A program made the position numbers and the translations under genes. Source: Erythrobacter sp. JK5 (GTDB lineage: Bacteria; Pseudomonadota; Alphaproteobacteria; Sphingomonadales; Sphingomonadaceae). Taken from it: a stretch of DNA of 64,000 nucleotides. The notes under the pieces were generated by a model, which was not told the DNA's origin, ran no database searches, and worked only from the letters and a program-made list of their open reading frames with translations. The stretch is from NCBI RefSeq assembly GCF_018205975.1, contig NZ_CP073577.1, positions 2,604,001 through 2,668,000 of the forward strand. Direction: 5' to 3'. Positions 4,693 to 39,318 of this stretch are shown in pieces (positions within the stretch are counted from its first letter, which is position 1; every line of letters starts with the position of its first letter).

Positions 4693-5955
4693 ATGGCGAT
4701 GATCCGGATCCAGCCTGCGCCGTTCTTTGCGAGCAAGAACCGGGCGTTTTGGAACCTGCAGCTGGCTGGCTGGGGAGGGGCGTTCCTGCTGCGCGCGCTT
4801 TCTGCGCTGGCCAACGGATTGCCGCTCGATCTGCTGGCGGTGATCCTCGTCAACACGCTCACCGGGTTTTCGATCACCCTGGTCCTGTCGGTAATCTATC
4901 GCCAGCTGATCAATCGCAAGCCGATCGTCACCTGGGGCGGCACCGCGCTGGTGCTGCTGGCCGCGGTCATCTTTCACGCCACGATCGATGCGTGGGTGCA
5001 GGGCATCTATTACGGCGGCAGCCGCGAGACGACCTTTGCCCAGCGCTTCATCGGCATCACCTACATCCCGCTCACGCTGCTCGGTGCGTGGAGCGCGCTG
5101 TATTTCGCGATCAACTACTTCCTGACGGTCGAACAGCAGGCCGACCGGCTGCAACGGCTCGAAGCGCAGACGACTGCGGCGCAGCTCGCGATGCTGCGCT
5201 ATCAGCTCAATCCGCACTTCCTGTTCAACACGCTGAATTCGATCAGCACGCTCGTGCTGCTCAAGCAGACCGGTCAGGCCAACGCGATGCTGACCCGCCT
5301 TTCGGGCTTCCTGCGCCACACGCTCATCGCCGAGCCGGGCAGCCAGGTGACGCTCGCGCAGGAGGTCGAGACGCTGCAGCTGTATCTCGAGATCGAGCGC
5401 ATGCGGTTCGAAGATCGGTTGCGCACGCACTTCGAGCTCGAAGAAGCCGCCTTGGAAGCCTGCCTCCCGTCGATGCTGCTGCAACCGCTGGTCGAAAACG
5501 CGATCAAGTATGCCGTCAGCCCACAGGAAGAAGGCGCGCGAATCTCCGTCACCGCGCGGGTCGTCGGCGAACGGCTGCGGGTCACGGTCGAGGATACCGG
5601 GCCGGGAGTCGACGGGCCGATCCACGAAAACCTGTTCGACAACGCCTCGACCACCCAGGGTCAGCCGGTGTCGACCGGCGTCGGGCTCGCCAACATCCGC
5701 AACCGGTTGATGCAGGCCTACGGCGAGGACCAGGTGTTCGAAACCCGCTCCGAACCGGGCGGCGGCTTCACCGTGCTGATCGAAATTCCTTACGAACGGG
5801 CGAGCGAAAGCGCGAGCGAGCCCGAACCCGGTCGCGAAGCGGCGGCACCCCCCGCTGCAGCCGCTTCCGACAATGCCGAACGGGCCGATCCGGCCGGGGC
5901 ATCGGCGACCGTCATCCCCCTGAACCCCCCGCGCACAATGGGATCATCTGCATGA
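4693..5955 (+). CDS. LytS/YehU-type sensor histidine kinase
   Basis: 420 residues. The N-terminal region (about 23-145) has four hydrophobic segments and no large extracytoplasmic domain. A His_kinase (LytS/YehU) domain follows: QLNPHFLFNTLN with phospho-acceptor His175, N-box LVENAIKYAV near 260, DTGPG near 303 and GVGLANIRNRL near 330. The last 60 residues are Ala/Pro/Glu-rich, low complexity and probably disordered. Its TGA overlaps the ATG of the LytTR regulator gene (ATGA), making a two-gene operon. The signal sensed is unknown. A paralogous pair lies at 45395-47378. Confidence 0.93.
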   Translation: MAMIRIQPAPFFASKNRAFWNLQLAGWGGAFLLRALSALANGLPLDLLAVILVNTLTGFSITLVLSVIYRQLINRKPIVTWGGTALVLLAAVIFHATIDAWVQGIYYGGSRETTFAQRFIGITYIPLTLLGAWSALYFAINYFLTVEQQADRLQRLEAQTTAAQLAMLRYQLNPHFLFNTLNSISTLVLLKQTGQANAMLTRLSGFLRHTLIAEPGSQVTLAQEVETLQLYLEIERMRFEDRLRTHFELEEAALEACLPSMLLQPLVENAIKYAVSPQEEGARISVTARVVGERLRVTVEDTGPGVDGPIHENLFDNASTTQGQPVSTGVGLANIRNRLMQAYGEDQVFETRSEPGGGFTVLIEIPYERASESASEPEPGREAAAPPAAAASDNAERADPAGASATVIPLNPPRTMGSSA

Positions 5956-6749
5956 CTATCCGTACTATCCTCGTCGATGACGAGAAACTCGCCATCCAGG
6001 GCCTCCAGGTCCGGCTCGAACCGTTCGAGGATATCGAGGTGATCGATACCTGCGCCAACGGGCGCGAAGCGATCCGCAAGATCAAGACCGAGAAGCCCGA
6101 TCTCGTCTTTCTCGACATCCAGATGCCGGGATTCGACGGATTCTCGGTCGTGAAGGGCGTGATGGAAATCGATCCGCCGCTGTTCGTGTTCGTCACCGCC
6201 TACGAGGAGCACGCGATCCGCGCGTTCGAGGCGAATGCGGTCAATTACCTGATGAAGCCGGTCGACGAGGACAAGCTAGCCGACACGATCGAACGCGTGC
6301 GCCAGCGCATCGCCGAGAAGAAATCGACCGAGGATGCGGAGCAATTGCTCGACGTGCTGGCCGAGGTCGCGCCCGATCGCGCGGCGCAGTTCAACGATGC
6401 CAGCGGCGAAAGCACCGAGCGCTTCGAGAAGCTCATCAACGTCAAGGACCGCGGGCAGATTTTCCGCGTCGAGGTCGATTCGATCGAGCATATCGACGCG
6501 GCGGGCGACTACATGATCATCTCGACCGGCGACAATTCGCTGGTTCTGCGCGAGACGATGAAGGATCTCGAACGCCGTCTCGATCCACGCAAGTTCCAGC
6601 GTGTACACCGCTCGACCATCGTCAATCTCGACCAGGTCCGGCAGGTCAAGCCGCACACGAACGGCGAATGCTTCCTGGTGCTGGACAGCGGCGCCGAGGT
6701 GAAGGTTTCAAGGTCGTACAGAGATGTGGTGGCGCGGTTCGTGCATTGA
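5952..6749 (+). CDS. LytTR-family response regulator
   Basis: 265 residues. The receiver domain (1-120) has acidic residues DDE at 9-11, phospho-acceptor Asp55 in FLDIQMPG, Thr in FVTAYEEHA and the Lys of YLMKPVD. A LytTR DNA-binding domain follows (about 160-265), with the characteristic HRSTIVNLDQV. It should be phosphorylated by the histidine kinase encoded immediately upstream and bind direct repeats in target promoters. Targets are not evident here. It is homologous to the regulator at 45395. Confidence 0.94.
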   Translation: MTIRTILVDDEKLAIQGLQVRLEPFEDIEVIDTCANGREAIRKIKTEKPDLVFLDIQMPGFDGFSVVKGVMEIDPPLFVFVTAYEEHAIRAFEANAVNYLMKPVDEDKLADTIERVRQRIAEKKSTEDAEQLLDVLAEVAPDRAAQFNDASGESTERFEKLINVKDRGQIFRVEVDSIEHIDAAGDYMIISTGDNSLVLRETMKDLERRLDPRKFQRVHRSTIVNLDQVRQVKPHTNGECFLVLDSGAEVKVSRSYRDVVARFVH

Positions 6750-6786
6750 TTTTCGCTCGCGGCGAGTGCGCGTTGCGCACCGCCTC

Positions 6787-6926
6787 CGCGGGGGCGGCCT
6801 GACCGGCCGACGCGCGGTCGCGCTCTGACTGCCGTGGCCAGAAACCAATCGGCTGCGAAGCAGTCGCAAGGCCGACCGGCCGCCCCCTTCGGCTAGCTGG
6901 CAAGCCAGCCGCTCAGGATAAACTAC
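6787..6926 (+). repeat. long-range inverted repeat in the lytTR-nadC gap
   Basis: GGGGGCGGCC near 6793-6802 is the exact reverse complement of GGCCGCCCCC near 6879-6888, and flanking CCGGCC/GGCCG stretches add partial pairing. The arms are separated by about 75 nt. A smaller hairpin (GGCT..GGC-AA-GCC..AGCC) follows near 6890-6912. The 265-bp gap thus has strong folding potential on both strands. No T-tract follows, so an intrinsic terminator is not supported. Function unknown. Confidence 0.4.
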
Positions 6927-6993
6927 GCGATGCGACCTTCAGGTCGCGTGAGCGAGGATATCGCGAGCGCGGATGCGCTTGCGGAAAACAAAC
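6927..6993 (+). repeat. structured two-hairpin intergenic repeat, copy 1
   Basis: In order: hairpin GCGACC-TTCA-GGTCGC (6932-6947), a conserved linker GTGAGCGAGGATATCGCG ending at 6965, hairpin AGCGC-GGAT-GCGCT (6966-6979), then TGCGGAAAACAAAC (6980-6993). A second copy lies on the minus strand at 38219-38284. The linker and the tail are identical or nearly so in both, while both hairpin stems differ in sequence but keep pairing. It sits 21 nt upstream of the nadC ATG. Function unknown: it could be a REP-like element, a cis-regulatory RNA or a mobile cassette. Confidence 0.55.
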
Positions 6994-7014
6994 GACTCCG
7001 TCAAACCGCGCTAC

Positions 7015-7890
7015 ATGACCACTTTCACCCTTCCCGGTTTCGATCTCGACGCTTTCGTCCAAGCAACTCTGGACGAGGATCTTGGGACAGGGCTCGAAGG
7101 TGGCGGAAAAGACGTCACCAGCGAAAGCGTGATCCCCGCCGATGCGCGGTTTTCCGGGGTGATGGACAGCCGCGATGCGATCGTGGTCGCGGGGCTGCCG
7201 CTGGCCGAGGCGTTCTTCAGGGCACTCGATCCCGACGTGCGGATCGAAACCCTGGTGCACGACGGCGACAAGGTGAGTGCGGGCACCGACCTGATGCGAC
7301 TCACCGGCAATGCCCGCGCCATGCTGACGGCTGAGCGGAGCGCGCTCAACATCGTGCAGCATCTGTCCGGCATCGCCACCATGGCGAACGCATACGTTAT
7401 CGCCATGCGCGGGCCGGGCGGCAATCCCTCCTGCACCTTGCTCGATACCCGCAAGACCCTGCCCGGCCTGCGCTTCCTCGAGAAATATGCGACGCGGCAG
7501 GGCGGCGCGCAGAACCATCGCATGGGCCTGTGGGATGCGGCGATGATCAAGGACAACCACGTCGCAGTCGCAGGCAGTGTCGGCGAAGCCGTGCGCCGCG
7601 CGCGCGATGCGGGCGTGAAGCACATCATCTGCGAGGTCGACCGGCTCGACCAGATCGAACCGGCTCTGGAGGCGGGGGCGCACCACCTGTTGCTCGACAA
7701 CATGTCCCCCGAAATGCTCAGGCAGGCAGTCGGGATGGTTGCGGGCCGCGTGCCGACGGAGGCCAGCGGCGGGGTCAATCTCGACACCATCGCGGCGAAA
7801 GCGGCGAGCGGGGTTGATTACGTCTCCGTGGGCCGGCTTACGCAAAGCGCTCCGGCAGCCGACATCGGCCTCGATTTCACCCCGCTGTGA
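7015..7890 (+). CDS. nadC: nicotinate-nucleotide pyrophosphorylase (carboxylating), quinolinate phosphoribosyltransferase
   Basis: 291 residues, the normal NadC length. It converts quinolinate and PRPP to nicotinate mononucleotide in de novo NAD synthesis. Visible signatures are LNIVQHLSGIAT, the DTRKTLPGLR segment with PRPP/quinolinate-binding Arg and Lys, MIKDNH, and the C-terminal glycine-rich EASGGVNLDTI. ATG 7015 was preferred because the protein then begins directly with the family N-terminus; a start at 6973 would fall inside the repeat element. No clear Shine-Dalgarno is seen. nadA and nadB are not adjacent. The next gene overlaps it (GTGA). Confidence 0.96.
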   Translation: MTTFTLPGFDLDAFVQATLDEDLGTGLEGGGKDVTSESVIPADARFSGVMDSRDAIVVAGLPLAEAFFRALDPDVRIETLVHDGDKVSAGTDLMRLTGNARAMLTAERSALNIVQHLSGIATMANAYVIAMRGPGGNPSCTLLDTRKTLPGLRFLEKYATRQGGAQNHRMGLWDAAMIKDNHVAVAGSVGEAVRRARDAGVKHIICEVDRLDQIEPALEAGAHHLLLDNMSPEMLRQAVGMVAGRVPTEASGGVNLDTIAAKAASGVDYVSVGRLTQSAPAADIGLDFTPL

Positions 7891-38218: not shown

Positions 38219-38284
38219 GTTTGTTTTTTCCGCACCCCATTCGGGGCGCGATATCCTCGCTCACGCGATCAAAGATCGCTTCGC
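38219..38284 (-). repeat. structured two-hairpin intergenic repeat, copy 2
   Basis: Read on the minus strand: hairpin GCGATC-TTT-GATCGC, linker GTGAGCGAGGATATCGCG, hairpin CCCC-GAAT-GGGG, then TGCGGAAAAAACAAAC. The linker is identical to copy 1 (6927-6993), while both stems differ from copy 1 by paired changes that keep the fold. A further shared segment (GCAAGG-CGACCG-CCGCCC, allowing single changes) precedes both copies. It lies between thiSG and the 37626 gene. The A-run follows the hairpin on the minus strand, so it is not an intrinsic terminator. Confidence 0.55.
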
Positions 38285-38326
38285 TGCGGGCGGGCGGTCG
38301 CCCTTGCGGCCCTTCGGGCCGATTCA

Positions 38327-39318
38327 TCAGATCAAACCAGCGAGGGGGCTGCTTGGATCGGCATATTTGCGGCGCCCCATGCGGCCCGCAAGATAGGCCT
38401 CGCGCCCGGCCTCCACCGCGAGTTTCATCGCGCGCGCCATGCGGATCGGGTCTTTCGCTTCGGCAATTGCGGTGTTCATCAGGATGCCGTCGCAGCCGAG
38501 CTCCATACCGACCGCGGCATCGGAGGCGGTGCCGACACCCGCATCGACCAGCACCGGCACATTCGCGCCTTCGACGATCAGGCGGATCGTCACCTGGTTC
38601 TGGATGCCCAGCCCCGACCCGATCGGCGCGCCGAGCGGCATGATCGCCACCGCGCCCGCATCCTCGAGCTGCTTCGCCGCGATCGGATCGTCGACGCAAT
38701 AGACCATCGGGAGGAATCCCTCCTTGGCCAAGACCTCGGTCGCCTTGAGCGTTTCGCGCATGTCGGGATAGAGCGTGCGCGCCTCGCCCAGCACTTCGAG
38801 CTTCACGAGATCCCAGCCGCCCGCCTCGCGTGCCAGCCTGAGGGTGCGCACCGCGTCCTCGCCGGTAAAGCATCCGGCGGTGTTGGGAAGGTAGGTGATC
38901 TTCCTGGGATCGATATAGTCGGTCAGCATCGGTGCCTTGGGATCGCTGACATTCACCCGGCGCACCGCCACGGTGACGATCTCCGCGCCGCTTGCCTCGA
39001 CCGCGGCGGCGTTCTGCTCGAAATCCTTGTACTTGCCGGTGCCGACGATCAGCCGCGAGGTGAAGGTGCGCCCGGCGACGGTCCACGTGTCGGCAGCCGA
39101 ACCCTGGTGATCCCCGCCCCGACAAAGTGGACGATTTCGAGCATGTCGCCCGATGCGAGCGCCGCCTCCTCCAGCGTCGAGCGCGGCACGATTTCCCCGT
39201 TGCGCTCGACCGCGACCTTTTGCGGGGCTAGTTCGAGTTCGCGCACGAGGTCCGCAATCGTCGCTGCCGCCGTCTGGCGCGGTTCGCCATTGAGGGTGAT
39301 GGTCTTGGTCTCGCTCAT
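38327..39318 (-). pseudogene. thiSG: ThiS-ThiG fusion (sulfur carrier / thiazole synthase), single-base frameshift
   Basis: The ThiS part starts at ATG 39318 ([11 protein letters not shown]) and runs to EIVHFVG; the ThiG part in another frame reads [25 protein letters not shown], then a complete thiazole synthase to residue LAGLI. No start codon exists in the ThiG frame before GTG 38971, which would lose the first 50 or so residues. One extra G in the run read as CCCC at 39117-39120 (plus strand) restores [16 protein letters not shown], a continuous 330-residue fusion. ThiG makes the thiazole phosphate of thiamine using ThiS thiocarboxylate. Sequencing error or real lesion. Confidence 0.85.

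Follow-up and report, generated by a model that had tools for sequence, protein, structure and literature searches.

Two intergenic sequences, at 6927-6993 (+ strand) and 38219-38284 (- strand) of the stretch analysed here, raise the question of what kind of element they belong to and whether hairpin stems that change on both sides while still pairing must be read as the trace of a selected RNA. The whole stretch, 64,000 nucleotides long (G000:C1:2604001-2668000 in a one-contig, 3.34-Mb genome), is referred to below as the window. A sequence-only reading had presented the two sequences as copies of a conserved, structured element and had taken their covariation as a sign that an RNA or cruciform structure is under selection.

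Both sequences were present as that reading gave them. The 18-nt linker GTGAGCGAGGATATCGCG was identical in the two copies (6948-6965, + strand, and 38247-38264, - strand), and the window held two matches to it at ≤ 3 mismatches, compared with a mean of 0.14 in 100 shuffles. The stems of the two hairpins (C and D below) differed between the copies yet paired in each, and the tails were similar (GAAAACAAAC and GAAAAAACAAAC). The 67 bases originally described were found to be only the 3′ half of an element of ~110 nt with four hairpins (A-D); two further hairpins, A and B, together with their linker GCAAG, precede that half on its 5′ side (A-B at 6850-6881 in copy 1 and at 38292-38321 in copy 2). 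Copy 1 (A to tail, 6850-6998) is located between a different repeat that follows a LytTR response regulator gene and nadC, and the A end of copy 2 points to thiG. The features of both sites are as follows:

6747-6749, + strand: stop codon of the LytTR response regulator gene (5952-6749)
6750-6823, - strand: type 2 multi-hairpin repeat, recognised from its sequence as related but different, head-to-head with copy 1 and directly after the LytTR stop codon
6850-6866, + strand: copy 1, hairpin A
6866-6870, + strand: copy 1, linker GCAAG
6870-6881, + strand: copy 1, hairpin B, GGCC-GACC-GGCC
6885-6926, + strand: copy 1, insert of 42 nt that separates B from C
6930-6949, + strand: copy 1, hairpin C, GCGACC-TTCA-GGTCGC plus two flanking pairs
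6948-6965, + strand: copy 1, conserved 18-nt linker
6962-6983, + strand: copy 1, hairpin D with a GGAT loop
6984-6998, + strand: copy 1, tail GAAAACAAACGACTC
7015-7890, + strand: nadC, the next gene after copy 1 (Pfam QRPTase_N and QRPTase_C; start codon picked by eye)
38307-38321, - strand: copy 2, hairpin A, starting 5 nt past the thiG stop codon (38327-38329)
38292-38303, - strand: copy 2, hairpin B, GGGC-GACC-GCCC
38263-38280, - strand: copy 2, hairpin C, GCGATC-TTT-GATCGC
38247-38264, - strand: copy 2, conserved 18-nt linker
38231-38250, - strand: copy 2, hairpin D with a GAAT loop
38219-38230, - strand: copy 2, tail

The 42-nt insert of copy 1 was absent from all compared loci except those of the same site, apart from one 13-nt match at chance level. 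The type 2 repeat was recovered by blastn at two further genomic places, one of these being partial.

Alignment of 47 sequences gave a consensus of four hairpins on conserved linkers, with stems that vary freely and mostly pair. Hairpin A (about 6 bp, variable in sequence) is followed by GCAAG; hairpin B (4 bp, mostly G-S-S-C, with a loop that is often GACC) by GCCCGCAGCGAY; hairpin C (6 bp plus flanking pairs) by RTGAGCGAGGATAT; and hairpin D (CGC-variable-GGAT-variable-GCG) by a tail near GGAAAACAAAGACTC. Some matches in the genome of the window retain A, B, GAGGA, and D with a different C region.

Searches were performed with a covariance model built from 18 copies, the E-values of which are rough. 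At least 40 copies were found in the own genome at E < 1e-3, a lower bound given that 150 of 5501 candidates were scored; the 38 with genes called on both sides sit in gaps, a few of them overlapping the end of a called gene. With stricter filters, the model matched 62 of 149 sampled Sphingomonadaceae genomes, belonging to 45 of 96 genera. Of these carriers, 18 had ten or more listed matches and 21 had a single match, some near threshold. In other families of the order, one of 60 genomes matched (at 8e-5), compared with 9 of 20 within the family in the same search. By blastn, copy 1 and its flanks (window 6900-7010) matched 34 of 61 genomes, all of the same genus (34 of 37, own included). Judged by eye in a named collection, the recognisable element occurred in Erythrobacter, Porphyrobacter, Altererythrobacter, other Sphingomonadales or Erythrobacteraceae records, and one MAG labelled only Proteobacteria, while records of other groups held the exact 18-mer without the remaining element. 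In this genome sample, then, the element hardly occurs outside Sphingomonadaceae. Further copies and conservation in relatives, the lack of which had been named as grounds for abandoning the original reading, were both found, and its description of the element as conserved and structured held, now as a multi-copy one.

The element was compared with known families. Rfam gave no window match at gathering score, only single weak matches below it, so a known Rfam family was rejected. One of the weak matches, to the Twister-sister ribozyme (RF02681), spans 6859-6925 and covers the GCAAG/B region of copy 1 together with its private insert; this candidate was dropped, being seen in copy 1 only, at 19.2 bits versus a gathering score of 34 (E 0.05-0.1) and with non-standard pairs. 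Two other copies, each scanned alone (L089 1485-1625 and L127 4600-4880), gave no Twister-sister match at E ≤ 5. Elsewhere, L092 1767-1931 (- strand), near an element copy, held a sub-threshold match to the Caulobacter sRNA family CC2171 (49.2 bits versus 75, E 2.8e-7). A kink-turn reading of hairpin C was dropped by eye because its pairing was shifted by one. An intrinsic terminator is unlikely, as judged by eye: on the + strand D is followed by an A-rich tail, and on the opposite strand a T-rich stretch precedes the hairpin. Single 112-nt queries gave no blastn match in the plasmid collection or in the phage collection, which is weak evidence. Literature searches of open-licence papers (titles and starts of abstracts), using the exact linker words and repeats of Erythrobacter or sphingomonads, returned no description of the element family. 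On the Rfam scan and this literature search, the family is apparently new, its two unusual traits being cassette-like change of stems and oriented docking behind stop codons.

Copies were gained or lost at orthologous sites between related species. Behind thiG, the element was present in 6 of 29 readable loci (30 in total; L128, L137, L142, L143, L148, and L154), and L138 had a weak match on the opposite strand (E 0.0013). Several other loci held other repeats at this place, and many had short, element-free gaps. In L144 and L152 the post-thiG site is occupied by other, unrelated-looking repeats (CGCCAAGT... and CACAAAGGCACAAAG...). Behind coq7, 25 of 30 loci were readable and 6 of the 30 had a model match. 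In the coq7/wecC gap (wecC in relatives being recognised by eye from its C-terminus), the own copy has its D end at wecC, the G009 copy points the opposite way, its D end being at coq7, and in G019 the gap is 21 nt long and element-free. At another place in the G019 genome (G019:C1:2374892-2375732), four same-strand matches lie within about 840 bases, three of them nearly gapless in tandem.

Genes were called using a codon-usage script trained on the window, rather than a standard gene caller, with calls covering 90% of the window. Positions relative to genes were determined for copies with called genes on both sides (38 of 40 own and 54 of 59 related copies), with the end of the D stem taken as the end of the model match minus 10 nt. 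The related set excluded own-genome rows (already in the own set), two matches that were cut off (L045 7914-8000 and L086 1-101), and two that were weak (L045 6049-6127 and L138 2177-2264). The null expectation was obtained from 5000 simulations in which the copies were put back into their gaps at random positions and in random orientation. A copy was counted as docked when 0-15 nt separated its D stem from the stop codon of a gene on the opposite strand. This held for 24 of the 38 own copies and 29 of the 54 related ones (7.8 expected in each set), and no simulation reached either count. Tandem gaps were docked in 9 of 13 own (1.2 expected) and 21 of 35 related cases (4.7 expected; 0/5000 each), and convergent gaps in 15 of 19 own (6.6 expected; 0/5000) and 8 of 13 related cases (3.1 expected; 7/5000), the last being the weakest signal. 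In tandem gaps where D faces the stop codon, the distance was 4-14 nt in 9 of 9 own and 2-15 nt in 21 of 23 related copies, whereas A-side distances ranged from 4 to 933. Because the related copies partly share sites (five are at the thiG site, and in several other cases sister species carry a copy behind the same gene), their n overstates independence. The commonest position of the element is just behind a gene's stop codon and not in a 5′ leader, and docking is lacking in 39 of 92 copies, some two in five.

Read from the docked gene, the layout is stop codon, short T-rich spacer, D′, C′, B′, and A′. TGA, TAG, and TAA stops are all docked, and the docked tails reach or enter the stop codon, the C-termini being ordinary-looking by eye. 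The sequence-only reading had placed both window copies upstream of a gene on the same strand, and this is true of each (nadC for copy 1, an ORF without a Pfam match for copy 2). It does not extend to a general rule, since a start codon lies ahead of the D end in only 10 of the 38 own copies and 18 of the 54 related ones, all others having a stop codon there. In the two window copies, unlike in the majority, the D end is not within 15 nt of a stop codon; facing the start of the next gene, it has the minority orientation. A regulatory effect on the genes downstream is thus possible but unsupported, and neither nadC nor the gene that follows thiG needs to be under the control of these copies.

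Covariation was quantified over 78 distinct copies from 89 matches, in an alignment that was fitted to the model and includes the 18 building copies; its cells are not independent events. Pairing was found in 94.6% of 1765 cells versus 72.3% after shuffling, two-sided changes in 339 cells versus 95 expected (sd 7), and 22 of 25 pairs changed on both sides. None of 500 shuffles attained any of five covariation measures, and slid partners paired at 31-54%. The changes are modular. In 37 parsed copies, distances for modules A, B, C, and D were uncorrelated (Spearman -0.017 to 0.063); in 51 copies the stem of C was associated with its loop, GCGATC occurring with TTT in 10 of 12 and GCGACC with TTCA or GTCA in 11 of 15. 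At the thiG site, L142 and L154 are near-identical in A, B, D, and the linkers and have hairpin C replaced, their thiG genes being 86.5% identical over 600 nt. A further pair, L154 and L143, has the same A and D stems but not the same B (four paired changes, GGCC to GCGC) or C region. Outside columns 106-190 and 214-268, G-T plus T-G made up 21 and A-C plus C-A 30 of 1627 cells, giving no wobble excess for either strand; in those two columns G-T filled 33 and 10 cells and A-C 0 and 1, favouring the + strand. The covariation that had been reported was borne out overwhelmingly, but the inference drawn from it is not secured: with unlinked modules, whole-hairpin replacement, and no G-U excess outside two columns, covariation alone does not show selection on RNA. 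Template switching can yield a multi-base compensatory change in one event, according to the part of Monttinen and Loytynoja 2022 drawn on here (PMC8794818), and the hairpins made in this way in RNA genes resemble the present changes. That work, in the same part, concerns the histories of RNA genes and not a dispersed repeat, for which conversion from another copy is an alternative. Either route can account for the whole-hairpin changes of stems, and cassette exchange or template switching at the DNA level explains the covariation as well as RNA selection does.

These results bear on several explanations. Chance similarity of two GC-rich intergenic palindromes had nothing in its favour beyond the original two-copy basis and is refuted by the copy numbers in the own genome and the family and by the shuffled alignments; its probability is close to nil. 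A cis-acting RNA under selection (a regulatory leader, a 3′-UTR element, or an sRNA), with its structure kept by compensatory mutation, would fit the excess of two-sided changes, the + sense wobble in two columns, and the docking near stop codons. Folding z-scores also point this way, being -3.1 for copy 2 and -4.5 for the C-D part of copy 1 on the + strand versus -1.9 and -2.2 for the complements. When both strands of all 78 copies were folded, however, the + strand was the more stable in 45 versus 32, which is not significant (p 0.11). The wobble balance elsewhere in the alignment, the appearance and disappearance of copies between species of one genus, and the replacement of hairpins as wholes argue against this explanation too, and we consider it unlikely.

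A transposon-like element, in which the proximity to stop codons would reflect the target choice of an enzyme not known and not a function, is doubtful but deserves some weight. The own genome contains four tight head-to-head pairs with 24-25 nt between model ends, and comparable pairs in G074, G204, and G250 are spaced by about 21-24 nt, so that a pair of ~250 nt could, for example, be a MITE with ~110-nt inverted repeats. Both orientations in the coq7/wecC gap and the ending of docked tails at or in the stop codon are also consistent with it. On the other hand, stems are too diverged for recent copying, docking at all three stop codons is hard to reconcile with a sequence-specific enzyme, and no mobilising enzyme was found in a search for the REP transposase domain Y1_Tnp (PF01797). 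The own genome gave no match at E ≤ 1, although the same search returned the domain in 10 of 14 control genomes. In a family sample of the same size as the element survey and, by the handles shown, of the same genomes, PF01797 was present in 24 of 149: 9 of 62 carriers versus 15 of 87 non-carriers (Fisher p 0.82), and two of the 18 high-copy carriers (G093 and G175). A RAYT-driven REP is rejected on the own-genome absence and on this lack of association.

The explanation that we favour, and consider somewhat probable, is an interspersed intergenic mosaic element of the REP/BIME/RIME kind, with a function suggested by its position. Like the REP/BIME repeats of enterobacteria and pseudomonads, it is extragenic, palindromic, present in many copies (at least 40 own matches, with the four inverted pairs among 40 matches), and in part located ≤ 15 nt from stop codons. 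It differs in having four distinct hairpins on conserved linkers, freely varying stems, and no Y1/RAYT match in the genome, and since that transposase is lacking it is not filed as a REP member. REP/BIME repeats have a GTRG head beside the palindrome, and the REPs of E. coli may protect the 3′ end of an mRNA. The 15-nt rule, a REP within 15 nt of a stop codon, covers 446 of 4,072 predicted E. coli REPs in the part of PMC12306157 used here; palindromes are counted there in Erythrobacter cryptus, the element family not being described in that part, and copies may therefore have been counted unnamed. By description and without sequence comparison, the element is also likened to other alphaproteobacterial intergenic repeats, RIME and the A/B and C palindromes of Sinorhizobium. 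These repeats are characterised, in the relevant part of PMC2573895, by conserved sequence and secondary structure, dozens of copies per genome, and no known function.

For such a mosaic element, copies would have spread by a mechanism other than the known RAYT, and stems would be replaced by conversion between copies via the conserved linkers, new stems perhaps arising by template switching during replication. In the mRNA of a docked gene, the first hairpin, 2-15 nt past the stop codon, may slow the terminating ribosome and/or protect the 3′ end in the manner of E. coli REPs; it is the position of the hairpin that suggests a REP-like action on termination. A more far-reaching version, which we put forward tentatively and think improbable, is a mobile element that docks at stop codons and whose hairpins are exchangeable DNA cassettes, with stems made by template switching and spread by linker conversion. 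Its covariation would then involve little or no selection on RNA, and an enzyme not yet described would set the D end at the end of an ORF.

If the favoured explanation is right, Sphingomonadaceae carry a large, apparently unnamed repeat family, which would be a clean natural case of strong covariation that is not directly readable as RNA function and would bear on the calling of non-coding RNAs from alignments. Its many natural copies, present or absent at the same site, would provide material for the effect of a hairpin stack behind a stop codon.
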